Positions 3,763 through 20,225 of a stretch of DNA of 34,677 nt are shown here, piece by piece. The stretch is taken from NCBI GenBank assembly GCA_023489485.1, contig JAMDCU010000025.1, positions 1 to 34,677 of the forward strand, read 5' to 3'. The DNA comes from Chloroflexota bacterium. Lineage in GTDB: Bacteria; Chloroflexota; Anaerolineae; UBA4142. The position numbers and the translations under genes were made by a program. Every line of letters begins with the position of its first letter. Position 1 is the first letter of the stretch. The notes beneath the pieces were generated by a model that saw nothing but the letters and a program-made list of their open reading frames with translations, was not told the DNA's origin and made no database searches.

Positions 3763-4899
3763 CTAATACCGTCGCGACGCCCCCGTCAAATCAAACCGCT
3801 GGTGCCGGATGAGAATGCTCTGCACGACGCCCTCACCCATGAGAAGTGTAATCAGAGAGCTTCCTCCCGCGCTCACGAACGGAAGTGGGATGCCGGTCAC
3901 CGGCATCAATCCCACATTCATCCCCAGATTCACAAAGCTCTGCATGAAAATCACCGCGACCAATCCCACGACGACCAGTTTGCCATAGGTCGTTCGCGCG
4001 ACACCCGCCACTCGGATCATCCTCAGAAGGATAAACGCGATCAGCCCCATGACAAACAGTGCGCCAAAGAATCCCAGCTCCTCGCCGATCACCGAAAAGA
4101 TAAAGTCGGTGGACCGAATGCGCAGAAAGCGGAGCTGACTCTGGGTTCCACTGCAAAAGCCCAGTCCTTGGGCTCCGCCCGACCCGATCGCGATGCGCGC
4201 CTGGGTAACGTTGTAGCCGGACCCCAGCGGGTCCATCTCCGGATTGAGAAAGGTCTGGATGCGCTCCTGCTGGTACGGCTGCAGGGTCGTAAAGATAGGA
4301 TAAGCGGCGACCAAAAGCACCGCCGCGGCGATCATCACGTCGCGGGGGCGCATGCCGGCGGCGAGCGCCATCACCCCCCATGTCAGAGCGAGGATGATGC
4401 TCGTGCCCAGGTCGGGCTGCAGGTAGACGAGCGCGATGGGCAGGGCGACAAAAGCAAAGGAGGCGGCGAGATATCGCCATTGGCTCATCTGCTCCTCGTG
4501 GTCGGACATGAATTTGGCGACGACGAGGACGAGGAGGAGCTTGCTCAACTCGGAGGGCTGGAACCGGAAAAAGGGGAGGTCGACCCAGCGCTGCGCGCCG
4601 TGCGTAATGACGCCGATGGCTGAGACGATGCCGAGCAACCCGACGGTCACAATCCAGATGGGCCAGCGGAGCGCGGCGTAGAGTCGATAATCGACGAAGG
4701 TGAGGATGAACATGCTCGCCACGCCGCCGGTCAGGTACAAGAGCTGCTTGATCGCTGTGCTTTGCCAATCCAGAGGCTGTGCGTCGATGCAGGCCGTCGC
4801 ACTGTAGATCATCAGGATTCCGATGACCGAGAGGAGAACGGTCGCGCCGAAGAGCCATAGATCAAAATGCTTAAAGAACTGACGGTCCGTGCGTTCCAT
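3763..4899 (-). CDS. rodA: RodA, SEDS-family peptidoglycan glycosyltransferase
   Basis: 378 residues with about ten membrane helices, the normal size for RodA. Family signatures are present: QPDLGTS with the catalytic Asp (~160), the loop DPLGSGYN followed by AIGSGG, TDFIFSVIGEELG, and the C-terminal PLPFVSAGGSS. RodA polymerises lipid II glycan strands in the elongasome together with PBP2, whose gene lies at the other end of this same cluster. The gene starts 9 bp after the minE stop, so it is in the same operon. FtsW is the main alternative SEDS member, but the MreBCD/PBP2 context and the sequence favour RodA. Confidence 0.95.
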   Translation of the reverse strand: MERTDRQFFKHFDLWLFGATVLLSVIGILMIYSATACIDAQPLDWQSTAIKQLLYLTGGVASMFILTFVDYRLYAALRWPIWIVTVGLLGIVSAIGVITHGAQRWVDLPFFRFQPSELSKLLLVLVVAKFMSDHEEQMSQWRYLAASFAFVALPIALVYLQPDLGTSIILALTWGVMALAAGMRPRDVMIAAAVLLVAAYPIFTTLQPYQQERIQTFLNPEMDPLGSGYNVTQARIAIGSGGAQGLGFCSGTQSQLRFLRIRSTDFIFSVIGEELGFFGALFVMGLIAFILLRMIRVAGVARTTYGKLVVVGLVAVIFMQSFVNLGMNVGLMPVTGIPLPFVSAGGSSLITLLMGEGVVQSILIRHQRFDLTGASRRY

Positions 4900-4908
4900 A
4901 GGTGCCGC

Positions 4909-5223
4909 TTAACGCGTCTTGCGTGACCTCTTGCGGATCGCTGGAGTCGAGGCGGGAGCCTCGTGCGCAACGCTCGGCGGGCGCAGGACGGGGATATCGG
5001 CCACGAGGCGAGTTCCTTCCGGGCCGCGGGAGAGAGTAAAGGCCACGTGAGCGCGATCGATGCTGATATGTCTGGATATCACGCCGATGATTTCGTCCTT
5101 CAACAATTCGAGTTCGCCCGGCGAAAGGGAAGCGCGGTCGTGGGCCAACACCAATTGTAGGCGCTCCTTGGCCACCATAGCGCTCGAAGGTGAACGGCCG
5201 AATAACCGCTCCATCAAGTTCAT
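4909..5223 (-). CDS. minE: MinE, topological specificity factor of the Min system
   Basis: 104 residues. The N-terminus MNLMERLFGR is an amphipathic membrane-targeting helix. The MinD-binding (anti-MinCD) segment with VAKERLQLVLAHDR follows at ~17-30, and the dimerisation domain (~36-85) includes LLKDEIIGVISRHI. A basic tail (RKRSRKTR) ends the protein and is longer than in E. coli MinE. MinE displaces MinC from MinD and stimulates MinD ATPase, producing Min oscillation or polar restriction. The gene follows minD1 by 66 bp and precedes rodA by 9 bp. Its first 35 residues match the N-terminus of MinC1 encoded upstream. Confidence 0.93.
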   Translation of the reverse strand: MNLMERLFGRSPSSAMVAKERLQLVLAHDRASLSPGELELLKDEIIGVISRHISIDRAHVAFTLSRGPEGTRLVADIPVLRPPSVAHEAPASTPAIRKRSRKTR

Positions 5224-5289: not shown

Positions 5290-6084
5290 TTAGCGTCCGA
5301 GCAAACGCGCAATCCGGTCGAGCAGACTCGTCGTGCCGTCAAAGCTCTGAAACGGAATCTGTTCGCCGAGCAGGCGCCGGGCGATGCGCATATAAGCCGC
5401 GCTCGCCCCGCCCTTTTCCTGAAGGGCGACGGGTGAACCGCGGTTCGTTGAGACCACGATCGCTTCGTCCTCCGGAACGATGCCGATCAGGTCGATGGCC
5501 AGAACTTCTAATACATCCGGCGTATCGAGCATATCCCCGTGGCGGATCATCAGAGGCCGCAGCCGGTTGATGATGAGCCGCGGGGTCGGCTTTTGCGCCG
5601 ATTCAATCAGGCCGATGATGCGATCGGCATCGCGGACAGCCGAAACCTCGGGCGTGGTCACGATGATGGCTTCGTGCGCGGGCGCGAGCGCGTTCCTAAA
5701 GCCGTGTTCGATCCCCGCCGGGGAATCGATCAGAATGAAATCAAAATCATTCTGGAGCGCGCCGCAGAGCTGGACCATCTGCATTTCGTTGACGGCGGTC
5801 TTGTCGCGCGATTGCGCCGCGGGAAGCAGCTGCAGGTCCGGCACGCGCTGGTCGCGGATGAGGGCCTGGTTCAGCCGGGCCCGTCCTTCCACCACGTCGA
5901 CGAGATCGTACGCAATGCGGTTCTCCAGGCCGAGAACCACGTCGAGATTACGCAGGCCGATATCCGCATCCAGGCAAGCCACGCGATGACCGCAGCGCGC
6001 CAAAGCGATGGCGAGGTTGGCGGTGGTCGTCGTCTTGCCCACGCCGCCCTTGCCAGAGGTGATGGTAATTACTCGTGCCGGCAT
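5290..6084 (-). CDS. minD: MinD (copy 1), septum-site ATPase
   Basis: 264 residues. The deviant Walker A motif KGGVGKT is at 12-18, DADIGLRNLD (switch I region) at ~40-49, and LIDSPAG (Walker B/switch II) at ~118-124. The C-terminal amphipathic membrane-targeting helix SLLDRIARLLGR is present. MinD binds membrane as an ATP dimer and recruits MinC or MinE. This copy lies directly before minE and after the MinE-fused minC1. It is very similar to minD2 upstream, which has the same length once a 27-bp duplication is discounted. The gene uses ATG at 6084, with a G-rich stretch but no strong Shine-Dalgarno. Confidence 0.95.
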   Translation of the reverse strand: MPARVITITSGKGGVGKTTTTANLAIALARCGHRVACLDADIGLRNLDVVLGLENRIAYDLVDVVEGRARLNQALIRDQRVPDLQLLPAAQSRDKTAVNEMQMVQLCGALQNDFDFILIDSPAGIEHGFRNALAPAHEAIIVTTPEVSAVRDADRIIGLIESAQKPTPRLIINRLRPLMIRHGDMLDTPDVLEVLAIDLIGIVPEDEAIVVSTNRGSPVALQEKGGASAAYMRIARRLLGEQIPFQSFDGTTSLLDRIARLLGR

Positions 6085-6228: not shown

Positions 6229-6260
6229 TCATTGGCCACTGGCCATTGGCTCATTCATCA
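6229..6260. repeat. Imperfect 7-bp periodic repeat at the 3' end of minC1
   Basis: CATTGGC, CACTGGC, CATTGGC and TCATTCA units run in tandem just after the minC1 stop. The reverse complement of the same motif recurs at 17332-17369, so this is a dispersed family. Confidence 0.6.
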
Positions 6261-7319
6261 CGGCACTCCCCACGGCTCGACGACGATCTGTCCACTCCGA
6301 ATGCGTGCGATTTCGGCTGGCCACGGATGCCAGCGTTTTTCATCCGGCGCGCGGGCCACCTGCTTGCCGATCCGTACCTGCGTCGGCGCAAGGATCAAAG
6401 CCCCCACGACGGCATTGTCGTCCCCGGCCGAGCCAGCGTGGACGACGCCTCGCAATTTGCCGAGCACGATCACGTCCCCTTCCGCAATCACCTCGGCCGC
6501 GGGGTTCACATCCCCAAAGACGACAATCGTGCCGGCGTAGTGAATGACCTGACCCGAGCGCACCGTCCGCCGAATGAGGAGAGCCTGGGAGGCCTGCAAG
6601 GGATTCTCGCGATCGACCGGTGCGGCGATAGCGGGCGCGGTGATCCCGGCTTGTGCCTTGGCGAATCTGGGCTTGAAATCGGGCAGCTCCCCTGCCGGCA
6701 CAGGCTTGGTCGCATACCGGATGGAAGCCCCCGCGCTTTTTAGCGGGGCCGGAGACTCGGCGCTGGTTGGCGGAGGAGCAGACCCCGCGCGCGCGGGACG
6801 CGTCGGCTTGGGTGCACCAACAGGCCGCCCCGGCGAGGCCGGCGTCTTGGCGATAGGGGTGCGGGCATCGAACCCGAGTGCTTCGGGAGGCGGCGGCATG
6901 GGCGGCGGCGGTGGAGTCACGGACCGGGTCTGGATCGAAGCGGGTAGCTTGGAGCTGACCACCTGGCCGATCACCGAACTCAGACTCATGGCGTGCCGGG
7001 CAAGTAGACGCGACACCTCTTCCAGTTCTCGAGAGCCGACGGATCGATTGCCGGTTTCCAAATGCACCCGGGCGCCGCGCCAGGTTGCATCGGCGTCGCG
7101 GCGGTCGAGCTGGACAGCCAGTTCGCCGACCAACTCCTTCCAGGGGCCATCGCCGAGCGTAATGCACAGTCCTTCTCGCGTCCCGCGGAAGGAAATCGAG
7201 ACCCGTTGGGTATCGGGAGAGATCCGCATGCGCTCTTGGGCCAGGACGACCTTGAGGCGCTCTTTGGCCACAGGTCTACTGGCGGGCGGGTGCTCGAACC
7301 ACCGGGCTAGGAAACTCAT
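6258..7319 (-). CDS. minC: MinC (copy 1) carrying a MinE-like N-terminal extension
   Basis: 353 residues. Residues 1-36 (MSFLARWF, then PVAKERLKVVLAQER and ISP) match the start of the neighbouring MinE at 17 of 35 positions by eye. They cover both the membrane helix and the MinD-binding segment. Residues ~38-110 are the MinC N-domain (FtsZ-inhibiting; ISFRGTREGL, RGARVHLETGNR). A Pro/Ala-rich linker runs ~115-245, and the MinC C-terminal beta-helix domain follows with the MinD-contacting RSGQ at 254-257 and ALILAPTQVRIG. The ATG at 7319 has GAGAGGA just upstream, so the extension is expected to be translated. The linker contains an inserted-looking GC hairpin (6727-6750). The gene starts 23 bp after minD2. 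The fusion is not the standard MinC architecture; its effect is unknown. Confidence 0.93.
   Translation of the reverse strand: MSFLARWFEHPPASRPVAKERLKVVLAQERMRISPDTQRVSISFRGTREGLCITLGDGPWKELVGELAVQLDRRDADATWRGARVHLETGNRSVGSRELEEVSRLLARHAMSLSSVIGQVVSSKLPASIQTRSVTPPPPPMPPPPEALGFDARTPIAKTPASPGRPVGAPKPTRPARAGSAPPPTSAESPAPLKSAGASIRYATKPVPAGELPDFKPRFAKAQAGITAPAIAAPVDRENPLQASQALLIRRTVRSGQVIHYAGTIVVFGDVNPAAEVIAEGDVIVLGKLRGVVHAGSAGDDNAVVGALILAPTQVRIGKQVARAPDEKRWHPWPAEIARIRSGQIVVEPWGVP
6727..6750. repeat. GC-rich hairpin inside the minC1 linker coding region
   Basis: CCCCGC and GCGGGG arms flank a TTTTTA-containing loop. It is nearly the same as the element at 6183-6209 and related to those at 18974-18992 and 20441-20462. 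It falls in the part of minC1 that encodes the unstructured linker (residues ~190-198). Confidence 0.5.
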
Positions 7320-7342
7320 GCTGTCCTCTCTAGACTCTCGAG

Positions 7343-8164
7343 CTACCGCCGCAACAGCTTCGCGAAACGATCCACAAAGCGGGGTGACTCGTCGAGTGGC
7401 GGGATGGGGACTCGTTCGCCTAACAAGCGCTGGGCCAGACGCACGAACGCCTTGCCCGAGCTCGTCCGACCGTCGAAGGCCACGGGCATGCCGTTATTCG
7501 TGGCGCTGATGATCGCTTCGTCTTCCGGGACGATGCCGATCAGATCGATCGCGAGGATCTCCAAGACATCCGGGGTGTCGAGCATATCTCCCCGTTTCAC
7601 CATGGAGGGACGCAAGCGGTTGAGGATGAGCTGAGGTGGCGCCTTTTCGGCGGCTTGCAGCAGGCCGATAATGCGGTCGGCATCGCGGACGGCGGACATT
7701 TCAGGAGTCGTGACGATCAAGACCTGGTCGGCGGGAGCGATGGCGTTCTTGAATCCCTGCTCGATCCCCGCGGGCGAATCGATCAGGATAAAATCTGTCT
7801 GCTGACGCAAGTCATCGCACAGGCGCATCATTTGTTTTTCGTTCACGGCGCGCATCATTTGTTTTTCGTTCACGGCATTCTTGTCTCGCGTCTGCGCGGC
7901 CGGAAGGAGTTGCAGTTCGGGCAAGCGCTTGTCGCGCACAAGGGCCTGGCGGAGACGGGCCCGTCCCTCCACGACATCCACCAGATCATACACGATCCGA
8001 TTTTCCAGCCCTAGGACCACGTCCAGGTTCCGCAGCCCGATATCCGCGTCCACACAGGCGACGTGATACCCGCGGCGGGCCAGGGCAACGCCGAGATTGG
8101 CGGTGGTCGTGGTCTTGCCGACGCCGCCCTTGCCGGAGGTGATGGTGATCACTCGTGCCGACAT
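7343..8164 (-). CDS. minD: MinD (copy 2), septum-site ATPase with a duplicated 9-residue segment
   Basis: 273 residues from the ATG at 8164, which is preceded by GGAG at proper spacing; an upstream in-frame start would add a non-MinD-like tail and is not used. Deviant Walker A KGGVGKT at ~12-18, DADIGLRNLD and LIDSPAG are intact. The C-terminal membrane helix RFVDRFAKLLRR is present. A perfect 27-bp tandem duplication repeats nine residues (NEKQMMRAV) at ~97-114. Without it the length is 264, identical to MinD1. The gene follows minC2 by 64 bp and precedes the fusion minC1 by 23 bp. Confidence 0.94.
   Translation of the reverse strand: MSARVITITSGKGGVGKTTTTANLGVALARRGYHVACVDADIGLRNLDVVLGLENRIVYDLVDVVEGRARLRQALVRDKRLPELQLLPAAQTRDKNAVNEKQMMRAVNEKQMMRLCDDLRQQTDFILIDSPAGIEQGFKNAIAPADQVLIVTTPEMSAVRDADRIIGLLQAAEKAPPQLILNRLRPSMVKRGDMLDTPDVLEILAIDLIGIVPEDEAIISATNNGMPVAFDGRTSSGKAFVRLAQRLLGERVPIPPLDESPRFVDRFAKLLRR
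7823..7876. repeat. Perfect 27-bp tandem duplication in minD2 (in frame)
   Basis: Two identical, directly abutting 27-bp copies (7823-7849 and 7850-7876). The frame is kept and nine residues are added. MinD1 has a single copy of the corresponding segment. Confidence 0.95.
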
Positions 8165-8228: not shown

Positions 8229-9329
8229 CTAGATTCTGCCGCCGTTCCAGGGCTCGAGGACGATTTGGTTGCCGCGCACACGGGCAATTTCGGCCGGAGA
8301 CGTGTGCTGCGTCCTTTGGTCCGGCGCACGTGCGATATGTGTGCCGATGCGCAGCTGGGTGGGGGCAAGCGTCAGCGCGCTCACCGTGGCGCTGTTGTTC
8401 CCGGCCGCGCCCGCATGGACGAGACCGCGCAGACGTCCCCACACGAAAACATCTCCCTCGGCAATGACCACCGCTCCTGGATGAACATCCCCGAGGATGA
8501 CGATCGTCCCCTTGTGCTTGAGCGTCTGCCCCGAGCGAACGCTGCGGCGAAAGATCAGCGCGGGGGAACTGTCGTTCTTGCTTTCAGAATCGTCGAATGA
8601 CACGGGAGGAGTCACGTTGCGCGGATGCTCCATAGGTAAATACTCTGGAGGTGGAGGCAGCGCGGTCGTCTTCGTTTCTTTGTCCGCGCCGGGACCGGGC
8701 ACTTGATCCTCTGGAGTCGCTCCCGCGGCCGCAGAAGGGTCCGCCGCCGGCGTCGGCTCGGACGGCGGTGAAGAGCCCGGAGTGTGTTCCGCTCCAGCAG
8801 CAGACCCGGATTCTGCACTGGATTTTGTCGCGGACGCCGTGGAATCCGCCGCCGCTCCTTCGGTCGCCGCCGCTGGCGCTCCTTCGGACGGTGCCGCTGC
8901 CGGTCCTTCGGTTGCTGCCGGAGGAGATGCTTCGGACGCTGCCGCCGCAGGCGGTGCTTCGGACGCTGCCGCTTGCGGTGCTGCGGATGGCACGGCTTGC
9001 CCTTCCGCGCTTGCCTGCATTTTCGCTAGCACATTCTGTGCTTCTGGGTCGTCCAACACGGTGCTCAACGTCATCTGACGCTCCGCGAGCATGCCAATCA
9101 GTTCTTCCAGTTCGGAAACGCCAATCGCCCGATTGCCGGTTTCAAGCAAAACGCGCGCGCCGCGGAAAAAAGACTGCACGCCCGGGCGATCAAGCTGCAC
9201 GGCCAATTCCTTCAGCAAATCCTGCCACGCGCCTTCGCCCAACGAGATGTGCAGGCCTTCGCGTGTGCCTTTGAACGAAATGCACGAATTCAATGGGTTC
9301 GCAAGAGCCTCTCCCAGAATTTCCTCCAT
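8229..9329 (-). CDS. minC: MinC (copy 2), division-site inhibitor
   Basis: 366 residues. The MinC N-domain (~14-95; ISFKGTREGLHISL, RGARVLLETGNR) begins almost at the start, with no MinE-like extension. A very long Ala/Pro/Glu/Ser/Thr linker (~105-250) of repeated ASEA/PAAATEG-type units follows, with corresponding DNA repeats at about 8830-9010. The C-terminal beta-helix domain has the MinD-binding RSGQ at 265-268. MinC blocks FtsZ assembly when recruited by MinD. It is followed by minD2 after 64 bp and starts 24 bp after the mrdA stop. The Shine-Dalgarno is weak, so the exact start is less sure than the body of the gene. Confidence 0.93.
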   Translation of the reverse strand: MEEILGEALANPLNSCISFKGTREGLHISLGEGAWQDLLKELAVQLDRPGVQSFFRGARVLLETGNRAIGVSELEELIGMLAERQMTLSTVLDDPEAQNVLAKMQASAEGQAVPSAAPQAAASEAPPAAAASEASPPAATEGPAAAPSEGAPAAATEGAAADSTASATKSSAESGSAAGAEHTPGSSPPSEPTPAADPSAAAGATPEDQVPGPGADKETKTTALPPPPEYLPMEHPRNVTPPVSFDDSESKNDSSPALIFRRSVRSGQTLKHKGTIVILGDVHPGAVVIAEGDVFVWGRLRGLVHAGAAGNNSATVSALTLAPTQLRIGTHIARAPDQRTQHTSPAEIARVRGNQIVLEPWNGGRI

Positions 9330-9353: not shown

Positions 9354-11846
9354 CTACTGCGTCGGGACGAACTGGATCGTAAAGCGCTGGTTCGGCGCGA
9401 GGTCCACCGCAAAGGGGTCCGAATCCCCTGGCGAGACGGTGTGAAGACACCAGCGCGAGGCCTCTTTCCAATTGAGATTGTTGAAGCTAAAAGCCCCGTT
9501 GCCGTCGGTATTCGCCGTCTTGACCGTATTGCCGTCACACTTGTCAGCCGCCACGCGCGCGCCCGAGACGCCGCGACCGTTCGAATTGATCACCGTTCCA
9601 AAAATGCCCGGCTGTTCCTCGATCCAGCTATCCACGCCAACCAGGCGCCCCACGTATTTCCGAGCGGGCCCGGAGGGCGGATTGGCGGGCGTGGTCGCGC
9701 CCGGTTGAAGCGTTGAGCCGATCGACGGCCCAGGATTGACATGGGCATCGGTGGGCAGATTGAAATACGCTTTCAGAATATCCGTGGCGGCCGGCGCGGC
9801 TACGACAGACCCTTCGCCGCCTCCATACACAAACACCGTCACGACGATCTGCGGATTTTCGTAGGGCGCAAAGGCGGTGAACCACGCATGCGTCGGCAAG
9901 TTCCCGTTGATCTTGGGTCCGTAATATTCGGCCGTCCCGGTCTTGGCCGCCACCGCGATATCGGCCAGGTTCGCTTTGGTCGAGGTGCCGCTCGTGACCG
10001 AGCTGCGCATCCCCTCGCGCACGAGGGCAAGGACCTGCGGATCAATGGGCAGCTTGCGAATCACCTGCGGCTCGATGGTCCGCACCGTATGACCATCGGC
10101 GTCCGTCACCGCGTAGACGAGCTGCGGCTTGTACAAAGTGCCGCCATTCGCGACCACCTCGGTATAATCCGCGACTTGGAGCGGTGTGGCGAGCACATAG
10201 CCTTGCCCGATCGCCATGTTGTAGGAATCGCCCAGGGTCCACACCTCGCCAATCGTCTTGCGTTTCCAGGTCGGGTCCGGGATCAGGCCTTTGGCCTCCC
10301 CCGGCAAATCGATATGGGTGAGGTCGCCCAAGCCGAACAGGCGTGCATAGGCGGCGAGACGGTCTTCGCCGAGGGGGTTTTCAAAGTCCTTGTAACCGCC
10401 GACGAGCTTGTAGAAAAAGACGTCGGAGGAGACCCGCAGGGCATCCCGGATCGTGAGCGAACCAAAGCCCGGCTTGTACCAATCGTAAAAGGGCTGCGCC
10501 AGAGCGAGATCGCCGGGATAGTATTGGTTCTCGAGCCACATAATGCCGGGCGTCGTGATGCGTGTGTTCACGTCGATCACATGTTCTTGCAGTCCCGCGC
10601 TCGCGTCAATCAGTTTAAAGGTAGACCCGGGCGGATACTGGCCCGTGATGGCGTGGTTGATGAGCGGATGCAGCGGGTCCTGGGCCAGCTTGAGGTAATC
10701 GTCCGTCGAAATTCCGGTCGCGAAAAGATTGTCGTCGTAGCTCGGGATATCGACCATCGCTCGGATCTGCCCGTTGCGGGGGTCAATCGCGATCGCGACC
10801 GCCTCCTGGGTCGCCTTGGCAGCCCGCATGGTCTTTTCCAATGCCGCTTCGGCTGCCTTTTGGAGCTCGCTGTCGATATTCAGGACAAGATTGTGTCCGG
10901 GGGTTGACGGTTCTTCGCCGAGGTTGGCGACCTCGCGCCCCGCGACGTGACCTCGCGCCCCGCGACGTCCACTTCGATATACCGACGTCCCTTGGTGCCA
11001 TGGAGGTCGGGCTCGAAGGTATACTCGAGACCGGCGATCCCGACCTCGTCACTCCCCGCATAGCCCTGGTCCAAATAACTGGAGAGGTCCTCCGCCGGTA
11101 TCATCCCAGTGTAGCCAAGGATATGTGAGAGCAGCGCTCCATCCACATACTGGCGTACCGGTTTCAAGTTCACCTGGACCCCGGGATAGTCCAGGTGTCG
11201 TTCTTCAAGAAAGAAGGCGACCTCGCGCGGTACGTTCGTGGCGACGAGAGCGGGCGCGTACGGGTCGCGGCGGCCCTGTGCGACGATCTCGCGCAGACCC
11301 AATTTGCGTTGGGGCGGAGTCACCGAGCGATCGATATCGGGCGGGTAACGCCCGACGGGATCCGTGCTCGTATTTTCGATGACCGTATCGATGGGCACGT
11401 TGAGCAGCGAAGAGAGGTCGCGAAAAATCCGCTCCTGCTGGTCATCCGGCAAGTCGGCAGGGACGATAGAAACGCTGAAGGAAGGAATGTTGCGGACGAG
11501 AATGCGTCCGACACGATCGTAGATGATGCCGCGCAGGGCATCCGTTTGAACCAGGCGAAAACGGTTTTGGTTCGCCTCGTCGCGGTAATAGCCGCCCTGC
11601 ACTATTTGGATGCGTCCCAATTGCAGTGCAAGGACGGCAAAAGCGACGAGGACCGCGGTCCGCAGGAGGCGAAAATGGCCGCGCGGTTTTTCCTCTTCTT
11701 CGTCGACGATTTCCTGGGCGTACGAGTACTTCCTGGGCGTACGAGTACTCGTTCTCTGGAGTAGACACCAAACCTCTCGGGTGGGAAGTCAGGTCGCCAG
11801 CCGACGGCGCGCTCAAACTGGGCCTCTGGGCAAGGCGCCCGGACAC
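9354..11846 (-). CDS. mrdA: PBP2 (MrdA) transpeptidase, frameshifted twice as written
   Basis: Elongasome class B penicillin-binding protein, split into three frames by two perfect tandem duplications (11712-11749, 19-bp unit; 10929-10968, 20-bp unit). Removing one copy of each restores a continuous 817-residue protein. It has an acidic N-terminal tail, a membrane helix (RTAVLVAFAVLALQL), a PBP dimer domain, and a transpeptidase domain with STFK, SYN and KTG catalytic motifs. An additional C-terminal ~110-residue segment with a carboxypeptidase-regulatory-like beta-sandwich (GIFGTVINSNGRGVSGARV, NTDGNGAFSFNN) is unusual for PBP2. The start was set at GTG 11846, which has GAGGA 7 bp upstream; TTG at 11867 is an alternative. 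A perfect TATAAT promoter lies just upstream. Its glycosyltransferase partner RodA is encoded at the cluster end. Confidence 0.9.
10929..10968. repeat. Perfect 20-bp tandem duplication in mrdA (frameshift)
   Basis: Identical copies at 10929-10948 and 10949-10968. Deleting one joins the frame as VAGREV then ANLGEEPSTPGHNLV, the expected PBP2 sequence. Confidence 0.95.
11712..11749. repeat. Perfect 19-bp tandem duplication near the 5' end of mrdA (frameshift)
   Basis: Identical copies at 11712-11730 and 11731-11749. Deleting one joins YSYAQE to IVDEEEEKPRGHFRLL and the membrane helix. Confidence 0.93.
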
Positions 11847-12495: not shown

Positions 12496-12637
12496 GGTTA
12501 ATCGTTGGGTAGTTGGATCGTTGCCTAGTTCCACAGTTGCTTGGTTTCATAGTTTCGTGGTTAGCTCTAGCGCCACTAATAGCGTCAGGCTCTCCCAACG
12601 TGGCCACTGCAGAACTACGAGACTGAACAACTATTTA
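12496..12637. repeat. Inverted pair of imperfect 8-bp repeat arrays between mreC and mreD
   Basis: The left array (12496-12563) has 8-bp units ending in GTTG, GTTC or GTTT (GGTAGTTG, GATCGTTG, CCTAGTTC and so on). The right array (12601-12637) carries the same family in reverse complement (GAACTACG, GAACAACT). The right array overlaps the mreC stop codon. The same inverted layout recurs at 23495-23617. Confidence 0.65.
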
Positions 12638-13580
12638 ACTGCCGTGGGCGTCTTCGTCGGCGTGGGAGCGGCCGTCGGGGTCTCCGTCGGCTCGCTCGTG
12701 ATATCGGAGGGCGTGAACCTTTTCATGATGAGTACGAATTCCAGACGAGCAAAATCGACCGTCGGTTTGATGGTCGCTTCCTGAAAGAGCTCGTTATCGC
12801 GTTTGTGAACGTCGATCACTTGGCCGATCACAATTCGCTTTGGGAAATTCCCTCCCAACCCGGACGTGAGGATCGTGTCTCCCACCTTGATCGCATCACC
12901 CTGCGGGACGTATTTCATGAGCAGGTTGTTGTCGGTCAGGTTCGTGCTCGGGCCGCCCTGGATGACGCCCGTGGCCCGCGTCGATTGAACGACGGCGTTG
13001 ACCGAGCTGGACGCGTCGACGATCAAAAGGACTTTGGACCAATGCGTGCCGACCGTCCAGATCCGGCCGGCCAGCCCCTGTGGTGTCACTACCGGCATAC
13101 CGGCGATCACTCCTTCCGCGCTCCCCTGGTCCACGATGATGGACCGGACGAGATTGGAAGGGTCGTACCCGATAATGCGCGCGAGGTCGGGGTTGCGTCC
13201 GAGAACGGTCGCCCCCACGAGATCAAAATCGCCCCCACGAGATCAAAATCAGGGTTCGCCTGCGCGTAAGAGAGCTGCTGGCGCAGCGTACTGTTCTCGA
13301 GCTCGAGCTCTTGCACGCGGATGTGATCCAGCTTGCCCGCGTCCACCTGGGCTTGCAGGTCGGCGATCTGCGCGCGGAGCGCATTCACGTCGGCAAAACT
13401 GCCAAAGGCGCCCCGCGCGGTACCTTGAGCATCCGTGGTGCCGGCCAGAAAAGGCTCCATGAAAGTGAACGCAAGATTTTCGAGGGGTTGCAGTTGCCCG
13501 AATTCGTGAAGGGCTAACGCGGCTAGAGCGATGAGAATGAGGATGACGAGCAGAGTGAAACGATCGCGGCTTGGGTACAT
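12631..13580 (-). CDS. mreC: MreC, rod-shape-determining protein, frameshifted as written
   Basis: A 20-bp perfect tandem duplication (13210-13249) breaks the frame. With one copy removed, a 309-residue MreC results. It has an N-terminal membrane helix (~9-25), a coiled coil (~65-105; NALRAQIADLQAQV, LELENSTLRQQL), then the MreC beta-barrel region with VDQGSAEGVIAGMPVVTPQGLAG and GDTILTSGLGG. A Thr/Pro-rich tail (TETPTAAPTPTKTPT) follows. MreC is the extracytoplasmic scaffold that activates PBP2/RodA. It starts 18 bp after the mreB stop. The conserved remainder suggests a functional gene with either a sequencing or assembly error or a very recent mutation. Confidence 0.9.
13210..13249. repeat. 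Perfect 20-bp tandem duplication in mreC (frameshift)
   Basis: Identical copies at 13210-13229 and 13230-13249. Deleting one joins DFDLVGA to TVLGRNPDLARIIGYD, restoring MreC. Confidence 0.95.
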
Positions 13581-15647: not shown

Positions 15648-17354
15648 GTGCATCCCTCGGCATCGAACAATCACGGGCGCGAGGGCCAAGCCTCGCACTC
15701 ACTCGCTCGCTCCGCCGTCCTCCTTTATTGGCTCGCCCTCCTCGCCTCGGCTTGCGCGCCCATCCCCAAGCGGGTGGTCCTCGTGGTGGACGGCCAGCGC
15801 CGCGTCGTGGATACAGAGGCCGTCACGGTGGACCAAGTCCTGCAGGAGCAGCAAGTTGTCCTCGGCGACAATGACCGCGTCGATCCTCCCCTCTATGCCG
15901 AATTGGCCCGCAGCCAGACGGTCACCGTCACCCGAGTGCAGGTCAAAACTGAAAAGGTTCAGCAAGCCATCCCCTTTGAGCGTACGTTGATCCGGAGTGC
16001 AGGTCAAAACTGAAAAGGTTCAGCAAGCCATCCCCTTTGAGCGTACGTTGATCCGGGATGAATCCTACCCCGAGGGCCGCATGCGCGTGGTGCAATTAGG
16101 CGAGAACGGGACGATCCAAATCGTGTACACGATCACGATTGAAAACGGTCAGCAAGTGTCGCGCCGCGAAACCGGCCGCCAGATTGTCCTTCAGCCCAAG
16201 GACGAGATTCTCGCGATCGGGACGCAGGGGAGCCTGCCGAGCATTCCCGTCGCCGGGATGGTGACGTACCTCGCCAATGAAAATGCATGGGTGATGCGCA
16301 ATGACAGCAGCGACAAGCGTCCCCTTACCACGACGGGCGATCTCGACGGACGCGTTTTTTCGCTTTCCGCGGACGGCCGGTACCTCCTCTATTCCCGTGC
16401 GGGCGCTGAGAACTCGACGGTGCTCAATAGCGTTTGGCTCGTGGATACGCTCGTCAACGACCCGCCGCGCCAGCTGCCGCTGCAGGATGTGCTGTATGCC
16501 GAGTTGTCCGGCGACGCGCGGACGGTTAGACGGCCGCGGCGCCCGGGTGGAAGGCAAACAATGATCTCTGGAAGGCGACTCTCGTGCTCTCCAATCCCGG
16601 CTCCGGCCAGGGTACCGCCGAGCTGTTGGAAGCGAAACGGCTGTGGGATGCCAGTCAGCCCGCGCCGTATAGTTGGTGGGGGCCGCACCTGGAGCTCTCC
16701 CCGGATGGCCGGGCCATAGCCTACGCCCTGACAAATGAAATCGGATTTTCCGAGATTTCCGCTTCTTCCCTCGTGAATCTGCCTTTGCCCCGGGCCGCCT
16801 TCAAGTATTTCGCCCCCTTTTTGGCGCCAGGGGACTGGGTTTGGGAACCGCCGGTGTCCTGGTCGCCGGATAGTCGCTTTGTCGTCACCGTCGTCCACGC
16901 CGCGGTCGACCCGCCGAATGTCGCGAACGATAATCCGCTTTTTCAAGTGTGGGCATTTGCGCGGGACGGTACGGTCGCGGCGCCGCTCGCCCGACAGGCA
17001 GGGATGTGGGCTGCGCCCGTCTGGTCGCCTGTCGACGCCAAAGGCGAAAGCAACATCGCGTATGGTGTTGCCCTTTCGCCGAGCGACAGCGAGCACAGTC
17101 TGTATGCCCTGTACGTGATGAACCGCGACGGCGGGAACAAGCGTCAGATTTTCCCCGAGAGTGGCGAGGCAGGCCTGCCTCTTGTCCAGGTCGCCTGGTC
17201 GCCGGATGCGAGCCAGCTCATCGTCGTGCGGGACGGAGACTTGTGGCTCTATGATATGGCGAGCATGGGCTGGTCTCAACTGACGGCGACAGGGGATGCG
17301 TCGCTGCCACACTGGGTGAAGAGTCAATTGATCAATGAGCCAATCGGCCAATGA
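15648..17354 (+). pseudogene. G5-domain / beta-propeller lipoprotein gene with two frame lesions
   Basis: Starts at GTG 15648. The signal peptide ends in LLASAC, a plausible lipobox. A DUF348-like segment (RVVLVVDGQRRVV...TVDQVL) and a G5 domain (VQVKTEKVQQAIPFERTLIRDESY...VYTITIENGQQVSRRE) follow. The rest (from ~16250) is a TolB/WD40-like beta-propeller with repeats such as LSADGRYLLYSRAG, LSPDGRAIAYALT and WSPDSRFVVTV. A perfect 61-bp tandem duplication (15934-16055) shifts the frame. A second break at about 16527/16528 looks like a small deletion, because the frame resumes as TAAAPGWKANNDLWKATL with the expected AYS-type strand missing. It is probably a surface protein of the cell-wall or glycan machinery. 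As written it is not translatable in one frame. Confidence 0.75.
15934..16055. repeat. Perfect 61-bp tandem duplication in the G5-domain gene (frameshift)
   Basis: Identical copies at 15934-15994 and 15995-16055. 61 is not a multiple of three, so the G5 domain is interrupted; deleting one copy restores the frame. Confidence 0.96.
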
Positions 17355-17369: not shown

Positions 17370-20225
17370 AAACGCCTTCGCGCGCTCTTTGTTCTCTCCA
17401 TATGCTTGCTCGTCTTGGCCGTCGTCGGGGTGGTCGGTTTTTCCGACGTCCGGGATGAGCAGGAGCAGACGCGCGGCGTGACCTACGCGGCTGGCGAGCC
17501 GGGGCGCCCGCCCGCGGCGCTCGGATTGAATGCGGCGCTCGAGCAGTACTCGGATGCCGATCTCGACCGCGCCCTCCAGATGATTCACGATAGCGGCTCT
17601 CAGTGGGTCCGCCAGCATTTTTATTGGACTCAGTGGGTCCGCCAGCATTTTTATTGGAACGATATCGAGCCACAGCCGGGAGTTTTCCGGTGGGACACGG
17701 CGGACCGCATCGTGGCGCGCGTGAGTGCGCACGGCTTGCACCTGCTCGCCGTCCTCGACACCTCTCCTGCTTGGGCGCGCGCCCCCGGCGATCAGGATGT
17801 GACGACGGCCCCTCCTGCGCATGTGGAGGATTACGCTCGTTTCGTTTCCGAGTTCGTCAGGCGTTACGGAGAACAGATCCAGTACGTGCAGATTTGGGAC
17901 AATCCGAATATCCACCCGTTCTGGGGCAAGCGTGTGGCGAATCCCCTGGAATACACGGCCCTCTTGCGGGCGGCGGCTGTGGCCGCGCGGTCGGCGGATC
18001 CGAACATTCGGATCGTTTCGGCAGGGCTCGCGCCGAACGGGGAAAAGATTCGGGGCCATCCCGATTACTCGGACATCCTTTTCCTACGCGAGATGTACGA
18101 TGCCGGGGCCCGCGACTATTTTGACGTTCTGGGCGCAAAACCGTATGGGATGTGGAGCGGGCCGGAGGACCGGCGTGTCTCGCCGGACGTTTTCAATTTC
18201 TCGCGTGTCCTGTTGCTGCGCGACGAGATGCTGGCGCACGGGGATGCGGCGAAACCCGTCTGGGCAGTGGAGTTCGGCTGGAACGCCTTGCCGGCCGGTT
18301 GGGAGGGCGCGGCATCTCCCTGGGGCACCGACACGGAGCAGGTACAGAGCGATCGGCTCGCGGGCGCCATCCGGCGGGCTAAAAGCGAATGGCCGTGGAT
18401 GACAGTCCTGCTTGCACAGGATTTCCAACCGAACGCTCCGGCCAGCGACCCGCTGTGGGGTTTTGCTTTCGTAGACCGCAATTGGCAGCCTCGCCTCTTC
18501 TACCGGACGCTGGCGAGCGCAAGCGACGAGCCCGTGCAGCCCGCGACCTTTGATTTTGTGCGCTGGTACATGACGCTCGGCGCGCTGGCGCTGGTTGCGC
18601 TCGGAGCCGTCTGGCGTGGAACGGTCGCGGCATTTGAGATTCCGTGGGGCGCTGCCTGGGAGGCGCTTGAGACCCTTTTTGCCAGGCTGCCCGACCGAGC
18701 GCAATTTGCGTTCCTCGCGCTTGGCGTCATTGCTTTTTACTACTCGCCGAACACGGCGCTCAATCTCGCGCTCCTCGTCCCCATCTTTTTGCTCTCCGCC
18801 CTGCGGCTGGATTATGCGCTGGCGATCACCATATTCACAATTCCGTTCTATCTGTTGCCCAAGAATCTCGTCGGGACGATGCAGTTTTCGCTCGTCGAGA
18901 TTCTGGCGCTCGTGTCGGTCGCCGCGTGGGCGCTTCGCACGGGCATGCGCTGGGAAGCAAGAGACAGTAGGCACCCCGCAAAAAACGCGGGGTCTCCGCT
19001 TCGCTCCGAGAAAGCAGAAGGCAGGAGGCAGCGGGCAGAAGGCAGTGAGCGGTTCCGAGGACACGCCGGGCCATGGGAACGGGCACAATCCGCAATCGCC
19101 CCGATCCATGAGATGGCGGCCAATCTCAAATCTGTCGACTGGGCGGTGGTGTTTTTCGTTCTCGTCGGAGCGATGTCGGTCAAGTTCGCGGCGAACTTTG
19201 GGGTCGCGAATCGCGAGTGGCGCGTGATTGTGATCGAGCCCGCGCTCCTGTATGCGCTCGTGCGCGGAGGGGGATTGAATGCGCGTGGGCTGCGTAGGCT
19301 CGTGGACGCTCTGATCCTTTCGGGCGTCGCGGTTGCGTGCATCGGGCTTTACCAGTATTTTCTGACCGACTATGTTATCGTGGGCGAAGGGGTGCGGAGG
19401 GTGCTGGCCGTGTATGGCTCGCCGAACAACCTCGCGCTCTATTTCGATCGGACGCTGCCTCTCGCGATCGCGCTCGCCCTCCCGTTGGGAGTACGGATGA
19501 GCCGGCGGCGGCGTGTGCTCTACTCGCTCGCCGCGCTCCCGATGGGCATCTGCCTGTACCTTACCTGGTCGCGCGGGGCGTGGCTGCTGGGACTACCTGC
19601 CGGCCTCTTGGTCATTGCCCTCTTGAGTGGTCGCCGCGTGCGGCTGGCGGTCGCCGCGCTTATCGTCGTCGCGATCATCGTGCTCGTCCCCTTTCTCCGC
19701 ACGGAGCGAGGTCAGTCGCTTTTTCAGCAGGGCACAGGGACGGGCTTCTTCCGGGTGAGCGTTTGGAAATCGGGGCTCGCGATGATTCGCGATTATCCGC
19801 TGACGGGCGTGGGACTGGACAACTTTCTGTACAAGTACCCGGAGTATATGCAGCCGGACGCATGGCGGGAGCCCAACCTTTCTCACCCGCACAACATCAT
19901 TCTCGACTTTTGGGTCCGCCTGGGGATTCTGGGGTTGGTCGCCCTGGTCTGGATCGTGGGAGAGTTTTACCGGCGCGGCCTGCGTGTCTTTTCGTCCCAC
20001 CGCGACGATCCGGGCCGTTCCTACGCACGGGCCCTCGCCGTTGGATTGATGGCAAGCATGACGGCGGCGCTCGCGCATGGAATGATCGACGCGGCCTATT
20101 TCTATGTCGACCTAGCTTTTGTGTTCATGCTCGAGCTGGCCCTCGTCGTGAATCTCGATCGGGCGGACGCCGCAAGCGGAGGCTTACAGGTTCCGGCTTC
20201 AGGGTTCGAGGAAGTTGATCTTTGA
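17367..20225 (+). CDS. Glycosidase-like domain fused to O-antigen ligase/Wzy-type membrane polymerase
   Basis: 952 residues. After a membrane anchor (~5-25) comes a clan-A (beta/alpha)8 glycosidase-like domain (~50-400). It has VQIWDNPNIHPFWG where the catalytic acid/base motif is normally WNEPN, and WAVEFGW carrying the expected nucleophile Glu. The acid/base Glu appears replaced by Asn, so hydrolysis is doubtful. From ~410 the protein is a polytopic membrane domain with Wzy_C/O-antigen ligase features (SPNNLALYF, YLTWSRGAWLLG, YPLTGVGLDNFLYKYPEY, HPHNIILDFWVRLG). A 30-bp in-frame duplication repeats ten residues (~78-97). A repeat-derived stretch (~530-560) lies in a cytoplasmic loop. It probably polymerises or transfers glycans at the outer membrane face while the extracytoplasmic domain binds sugar. 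Confidence 0.85.
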   Translation: MKRLRALFVLSICLLVLAVVGVVGFSDVRDEQEQTRGVTYAAGEPGRPPAALGLNAALEQYSDADLDRALQMIHDSGSQWVRQHFYWTQWVRQHFYWNDIEPQPGVFRWDTADRIVARVSAHGLHLLAVLDTSPAWARAPGDQDVTTAPPAHVEDYARFVSEFVRRYGEQIQYVQIWDNPNIHPFWGKRVANPLEYTALLRAAAVAARSADPNIRIVSAGLAPNGEKIRGHPDYSDILFLREMYDAGARDYFDVLGAKPYGMWSGPEDRRVSPDVFNFSRVLLLRDEMLAHGDAAKPVWAVEFGWNALPAGWEGAASPWGTDTEQVQSDRLAGAIRRAKSEWPWMTVLLAQDFQPNAPASDPLWGFAFVDRNWQPRLFYRTLASASDEPVQPATFDFVRWYMTLGALALVALGAVWRGTVAAFEIPWGAAWEALETLFARLPDRAQFAFLALGVIAFYYSPNTALNLALLVPIFLLSALRLDYALAITIFTIPFYLLPKNLVGTMQFSLVEILALVSVAAWALRTGMRWEARDSRHPAKNAGSPLRSEKAEGRRQRAEGSERFRGHAGPWERAQSAIAPIHEMAANLKSVDWAVVFFVLVGAMSVKFAANFGVANREWRVIVIEPALLYALVRGGGLNARGLRRLVDALILSGVAVACIGLYQYFLTDYVIVGEGVRRVLAVYGSPNNLALYFDRTLPLAIALALPLGVRMSRRRRVLYSLAALPMGICLYLTWSRGAWLLGLPAGLLVIALLSGRRVRLAVAALIVVAIIVLVPFLRTERGQSLFQQGTGTGFFRVSVWKSGLAMIRDYPLTGVGLDNFLYKYPEYMQPDAWREPNLSHPHNIILDFWVRLGILGLVALVWIVGEFYRRGLRVFSSHRDDPGRSYARALAVGLMASMTAALAHGMIDAAYFYVDLAFVFMLELALVVNLDRADAASGGLQVPASGFEEVDL
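17599..17658. repeat. Perfect 30-bp tandem duplication in the glycosidase-like domain (in frame)
   Basis: Identical copies at 17599-17628 and 17629-17658. QWVRQHFYW is repeated, adding ten residues early in the barrel. Confidence 0.95.
18974..19051. repeat. Hairpin plus 7-bp repeat block inside the Wzy coding sequence
   Basis: CCCCGC/GCGGGG hairpin at 18974-18992, then 7-bp units (GCAGAAG, GCAGGAG, GCAGCGG, GCAGAAG, GCAGTGA) at about 19014-19051. It encodes a low-complexity charged loop (AEGRRQRAEGSERF) between membrane segments, unlike the surrounding protein. Confidence 0.6.

Follow-up and report, generated by a model that had tools for sequence, protein, structure and literature searches.

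A MinC protein carrying the N-terminal segment of MinE in a duplicated min cluster of a Chloroflexota bacterium

Introduction

Does a single natural protein hold both MinC and a piece of MinE, its competitor for MinD? MinC and MinE compete for one MinD site, and pattern formation rests on competition between separate molecules. The question is raised by a locus of an uncultured Chloroflexota bacterium (GCA_023489485.1, contig JAMDCU010000025.1), in which the initial annotation, made from the sequence alone, proposed that the N-terminus of MinE is fused in frame to a complete MinC. A natural protein with both ligands would provide a ready test of an activator tied to an inhibitor and of the need for the hidden state of MinE, and would illustrate the origin of a Min component through a duplication followed by a single deletion. 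A fusion that is no more than a passive scar would be of modest interest.

The window, that is, the whole stretch of 34,677 nt that was analyzed, carries on its minus strand mrdA, minC2, minD2, minC1 with the MinE-like segment (E′), minD1, minE and rodA, in this order:

9354..11620, minus strand: mrdA (PBP2), the upstream flank kept in relatives; frame broken as assembled (conserved neighborhood)
8229..9329, minus strand: minC2, the second MinC, without a MinE segment (TIGR01222, PF03775)
7343..8164, minus strand: minD2 (TIGR01968, 369 bits; P-loop and helix-7 residues kept)
6258..7319, minus strand: minC1, the E′-MinC1 fusion gene, 353 aa (ORF, family profiles, predicted fold)
5290..6084, minus strand: minD1 (TIGR01968, 377 bits)
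4909..5223, minus strand: minE, intact, 104 aa (PF03776, E 5e-20 over profile positions 1-67)
3763..4899, minus strand: rodA, the downstream flank kept in relatives (conserved neighborhood)

MinC1 begins with the N-terminal segment of MinE

Three features were assigned to the N-terminal part of MinC1:

7209..7319, minus strand: E′, the MinE N-terminal (anti-MinCD) segment, residues 1-37 (PF03776, TIGR01215, BLASTP, codon-position pattern)
7293..7319, minus strand: putative membrane-targeting helix MSFLARWFE, residues 1-9 (hydrophobic moment, alignment)
7227..7283, minus strand: putative MinD-contact segment, residues 13-31, with V-A-K-E-R-L at 17-22 (alignment; low-confidence AlphaFold helix at 17-30; contact helix of E. 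coli MinE at 13-31, PMC6803595)

The MinE profile PF03776 matched MinC1 residues 14-37 at profile positions 1-24 of 68. The match scored 24.5 bits on the whole of MinC1 (E 2.7e-5), just under the cut-off of 25, and 29.3 bits on residues 1-39 alone (E 8e-7). In the genome search E′ scored 26.7 bits, above the cut-off, and E′ and the intact minE were the sole MinE matches. Positions 1-36 of a second MinE profile, TIGR01215, matched residues 1-36 of MinC1. BLASTP aligned E′ with the window's own MinE without gaps (24/35 similar, E 3e-8) and gave exactly the 17/35 identities that had been counted by eye. The ungapped BLOSUM62 score of this pair was 79, whereas 200,000 shuffles averaged -23 and never exceeded 39; the profile E-values and the shuffles rule out a chance resemblance.

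The contact core VAKERL is unchanged in the alignment and includes K19, E20, R21 and L22, numbered as in E. coli MinE. The hydrophobic face SFLARWF is kept, and the hydrophobic moment of the helix is 0.64 as compared with 0.61 in the genome's own MinE. Residues 10-12 are H10-P11-P12, and the basic cluster R10-K11-K12 that follows the membrane helix in E. coli MinE is absent. The proposed membrane anchor was thus retained in its hydrophobic face but not in its basic cluster, and because the latter is gone, MinC1 probably binds membrane less strongly than MinE does, or in a different manner. D29, invariant across the aligned MinEs of the family, is replaced by E, and E′ is more diverged from other MinEs than the intact MinE is. 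MinE homology ends at about residue 37 (ISPDT versus ISPET) and MinC homology begins at about residue 40, which slightly shifts the boundary first placed at residue 36.

Between E′ and minE, the fractions of identical nucleotides at codon positions 1, 2 and 3 are 0.69, 0.74 and 0.29 (35 codons). Positions 1 and 2 together agree at 50/70 sites, and position 3, which is saturated, agrees at 10/35 (Fisher p 5e-5). Because the first two positions are kept far better than the third, E′ evolved as protein; this constraint may be partly older than the fusion. The topological specificity/dimerization domain of MinE is missing from E′, where the PF03776 match stops at position 24/68, and since this domain is absent the protein is a MinC by membership and not a MinE.

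The MinC part of the fusion is complete

The remainder of MinC1 comprises the following features:

6966..7196, minus strand: MinC N-terminal domain, residues 42-118 (sub-threshold PF22642 and PF05209; AlphaFold pLDDT mostly >85)
6585..6965, minus strand: Pro/Ala-rich disordered linker, residues 119-245, ~90 residues longer than in relatives (AlphaFold, sequence comparison)
6273..6584, minus strand: MinC C-terminal domain, residues 246-349 (PF03775, E 9e-30; AlphaFold; Foldseek to 4v02)
6549..6560, minus strand: RSGQ, the MinD-binding motif of MinC1, residues 254-257 (sequence; role according to PMC6803595)

MinC_C (PF03775), the beta-solenoid domain, matched residues 249-348 with 103 bits (E 9e-30; cut-off 33), and MinC_N_1 matched residues 42-108 under its cut-off. 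The Pfam scores of the N-terminal domain are thus sub-threshold, including that of PF05209, yet its AlphaFold fold at high pLDDT and its alignment to relatives identify it as the N-terminal domain of MinC, the one known for FtsZ inhibition. When supplied with an alignment of related MinCs, AlphaFold modeled residues 42-118 and 246-349 with high confidence, residues 121-240 as disordered and E′ as a separate tail with a low-confidence helix at 17-30. The best Foldseek matches were the MinC structures of Aquifex, Thermotoga, Pseudomonas and E. coli, with a target TM of 0.85 for 4v02. MinC1 is therefore complete from about residue 40, having lost little beyond its original start. Matches to PF03776, TIGR01215 and MinC_C in one protein, together with AlphaFold and Foldseek, bear out the in-frame fusion of a MinE N-terminus to a complete MinC. 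Both MinC copies have unusual linkers: between two landmarks they span 143 and 179 residues as compared with 50-60 in relatives, and these Pro/Ala-rich stretches are ~90-125 residues longer than in any family relative.

The ORF opens with ATG 7319 on the minus strand, and the Shine-Dalgarno sequence noted in the initial annotation is present:

7325..7329, minus strand: Shine-Dalgarno-like AGAGG, 5 nt before ATG 7319 (sequence inspection)

The frame also contains two internal start codons, GTG 7271 (residue 17) and ATG 7229 (residue 31). The fusion could be an evolutionary scar, real as DNA, in which E′ is a passive tail or is bypassed by translation from one of these internal starts, and MinC1 would then be an ordinary MinC. 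The internal codons are in line with this possibility, as are the divergence of E′, the loss of its basic patch and the low AlphaFold confidence for this segment. However, ATG 7319 has the best ribosome-binding sequence ahead of it, and that in front of ATG 7229 is poor; moreover, the VAKERL core has not changed, and while codon position 3 is saturated, positions 1 and 2 are conserved. We regard a scar as rather unlikely.

The fusion joint in the draft assembly

The genome carrying the fusion is a single draft, 71% complete, so we considered a misjoining of minE2 and minC1, either as separate genes or as genes of different organisms. Within 10 kb of the contig (7823-17660), stretches of 19-61 bp are duplicated exactly, head to tail, at six places:

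7823-7876, 10929-10968, 11711-11749, 13209-13250, 15934-16056, 17599-17658: exact tandem duplications

In 231 kb taken from other contigs of the same genome no such duplication occurred; 288 kb of relatives had a single one, of 16 bp. The first, of 27 bp, gives MinD2 an exact 9-residue repeat, AVNEKQMMR occurring twice. The mrdA gene (9354-11760) is frameshifted at the 20-bp duplication at 10929, and the 19-bp one at 11711 may put its start out of frame; a further 20-bp duplication (13209) interrupts mreC (12631-13580). These six duplications look like assembly joining errors or the product of an unusual local mutational process.

The draft status and the duplications, at least two of which break mrdA and mreC as joining errors would, count in favor of an artifact. 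Against it, the E′/MinC joint has no duplication, the nearest being ~500 nt upstream of the fusion start codon, and it is in frame and lies at domain borders. Sequence to the left and to the right of the joint correlates with the genome in tetranucleotide usage at r 0.92 and 0.95, respectively; 23 pieces of the genome itself gave 0.83-0.945, and other genera of the family 0.61-0.84. In addition, the unusual long linker is common to both MinC copies, the neighbors on both flanks are conserved, and the genome holds one orthologous rodA. The tetranucleotide signature and the conserved flanks argue against a contig joined across genera, although a join to a very close relative would escape the tetranucleotide comparison. 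On this evidence an assembly artifact is very unlikely and the fusion gene is very probably real.

The fusion occupies the place of minE in a duplicated cluster

We compared the locus with the 13 other genomes of the host family. Min genes were present in 12 of them, all with a single minC, minD and minE, and the order was mrdA-minC-minD-minE-rodA wherever the contig reached far enough. The host genome alone in the family has mrdA-minC2-minD2-[E′::minC1]-minD1-minE-rodA. E′ starts 23 nt past the minD2 stop codon, at the place of minE in the relatives. As the minCD(E) genes are duplicated in tandem here and the fusion stands where minE2 would be, it looks like a product of duplication and deletion.

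In the MinC tree, MinC1 and MinC2 both fell within the family clade (support 100/98), a placement that, with the long linkers of both, is consistent with a history common to the two copies within this lineage. MinD1 and MinD2 are 68% identical, about the distance between genera of the family, and both are on long branches, whereas RodA of the same genome is not. Sister relationships of MinD1 with MinD2 and of MinC1 with MinC2 were neither supported nor rejected by the trees (AU p 0.11-0.49).

The fusion probably arose by duplication plus deletion, with the order of events read from the relatives. The minC-minD-minE cluster would first have been duplicated in tandem; a deletion would then have run from inside the upstream minE, taking its topology/dimerization domain and the spacer, to the downstream minC, which lost its start codon. 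What was left would be a MinC, otherwise complete, preceded in frame by MinE residues 1-37.

Possible action of the fusion on MinD

In E. coli MinE, residues 2-12 bind the membrane and residues 13-31 contact MinD, and in the MinE dimer the topology domain hides both (PMC6803595). Residues 1-31 suffice to antagonize MinCD, and the MinE segment alone displaces MinC (PMC6803595). MinE and the RSGQ motif of MinC share helix 7 of MinD, at S148, D154 and I159 (PMC6803595), and mutations of MinE at K19, R21 and L22 affect MinD binding (PMC2883074). Both motifs are present in MinC1, as K19/E20/R21/L22 and RSGQ, and both MinD1 and MinD2 keep the P-loop, S148 and D154, with L at 159 (E. coli numbering). 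The description of the two MinD ligands as mutually exclusive was too strong, as the MinD dimer is two-sided and MinE occupies one side (PMC6803595).

From these relations, MinC1 would most likely still have two ways to bind MinD on the membrane, one via the RSGQ surface of MinC and one via the MinE contact segment; binding through E′ is somewhat favored. The E′ arm would be permanently exposed, because the MinE domain that normally hides the contact segment is absent. Since the MinE segment of E. coli displaces MinC and antagonizes MinCD, a fused E′ is expected to limit the MinC1-MinD complex: it could hold MinC1 on membrane coated with MinD and at the same time favor dissociation or ATP hydrolysis, and the result would be a short-lived, self-limiting inhibitor beside the ordinary MinC2. 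That MinC1 is self-limiting rather than simply tethered is a tentative proposal, and the whole explanation, a fusion by duplication and deletion with a self-limiting MinC1, stands at about even odds.

Alternatively, E′ and RSGQ might engage different sides of a MinD dimer or neighboring dimers, so that MinC1 would cross-link the MinD lattice and act as a stronger, better-anchored inhibitor without self-limitation. The two-sided MinD dimer with MinE on one side (PMC6803595), a linker of ~125 residues that could allow both ends to reach, and the hydrophobic N-terminus that is kept all accord with such bridging, but the free anti-MinCD segment in E. coli suppresses MinCD rather than strengthening it (PMC6803595), and we consider bridging somewhat unlikely. 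Among the outcomes, a self-limiting complex appears most likely, a cross-linker less likely, and a passive tail possible. The combined model, in which MinC1 with an unlatched MinE activator either self-limits its complex with MinD or cross-links MinD, beside MinC2/MinD2 and free MinE, is doubtful.

Rarity of the fusion and comparison with other min loci

No second MinE-MinC fusion was found among the matches listed in 396 genomes of the class. Two MinE matches occurred in the host genome and three others (G221, G273 and G239); among the matches listed, both were whole MinEs in G221 and G273. A fusion in a genome of the class with no MinE of its own could lie outside this listing. A survey of 400 genomes of the phylum gave no further convincing match across MinE and MinC in one frame, and weak matches reaching the MinE part (e.g. 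G598, residues 8-112 at 27.8 bits) appear to be extended alignments. MinE or E′ shared an ORF with MinC in 0/69 named loci, mostly of Chloroflexota, retrieved by MinC alignment; the single MinD-MinE match in one ORF (L120) was a weak 29-residue alignment. A search of genome contigs by peptide pattern found no close relatives of the fusion. The initial annotation knew of no described MinE-MinC fusion, and we likewise found none in the searchable open papers. E′-MinC1 is apparently unique and known from a single draft genome.

MinC1 has in common with known MinCs (PF03775, PF05209/PF22642; E. coli, T. maritima) both folded domains, RSGQ and a site upstream of minD in a cluster flanked by mrdA and rodA; it differs in the 37 N-terminal MinE residues, the ~125-residue linker and the adjoining second MinC copy. 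E′ aligns over residues 1-37 without gaps, including K19-E20-R21-L22, with the anti-MinCD domain of MinE (PF03776, TIGR01215). In contrast to MinE, it lacks the topology/dimerization domain, has the basic cluster at 10-12 replaced and is attached to MinC, and no latent state is expected.

Two MinCs were also found in 6/6 genomes searched of a sister family, f2 (G014-G019). In three loci of this family (L110, L112 and L115), one minD and one minE follow a tandem minC pair; the extra MinC and the gene order around minD/minE match those seen here. The sister-family pair differs in being an apparently independent duplication by the tree, in its one MinD and one MinE, and in having no MinE segment on either MinC in the loci read. 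A shared origin of the two pairs received no support from the MinC tree, which puts both host copies in the host-family clade. Outside the host family, with a single MinE and MinC and no fusion, two MinDs stand in tandem at L134:5341-7095 (unplaced bacterium) and L168:4814-7035 (Eremiobacterota).
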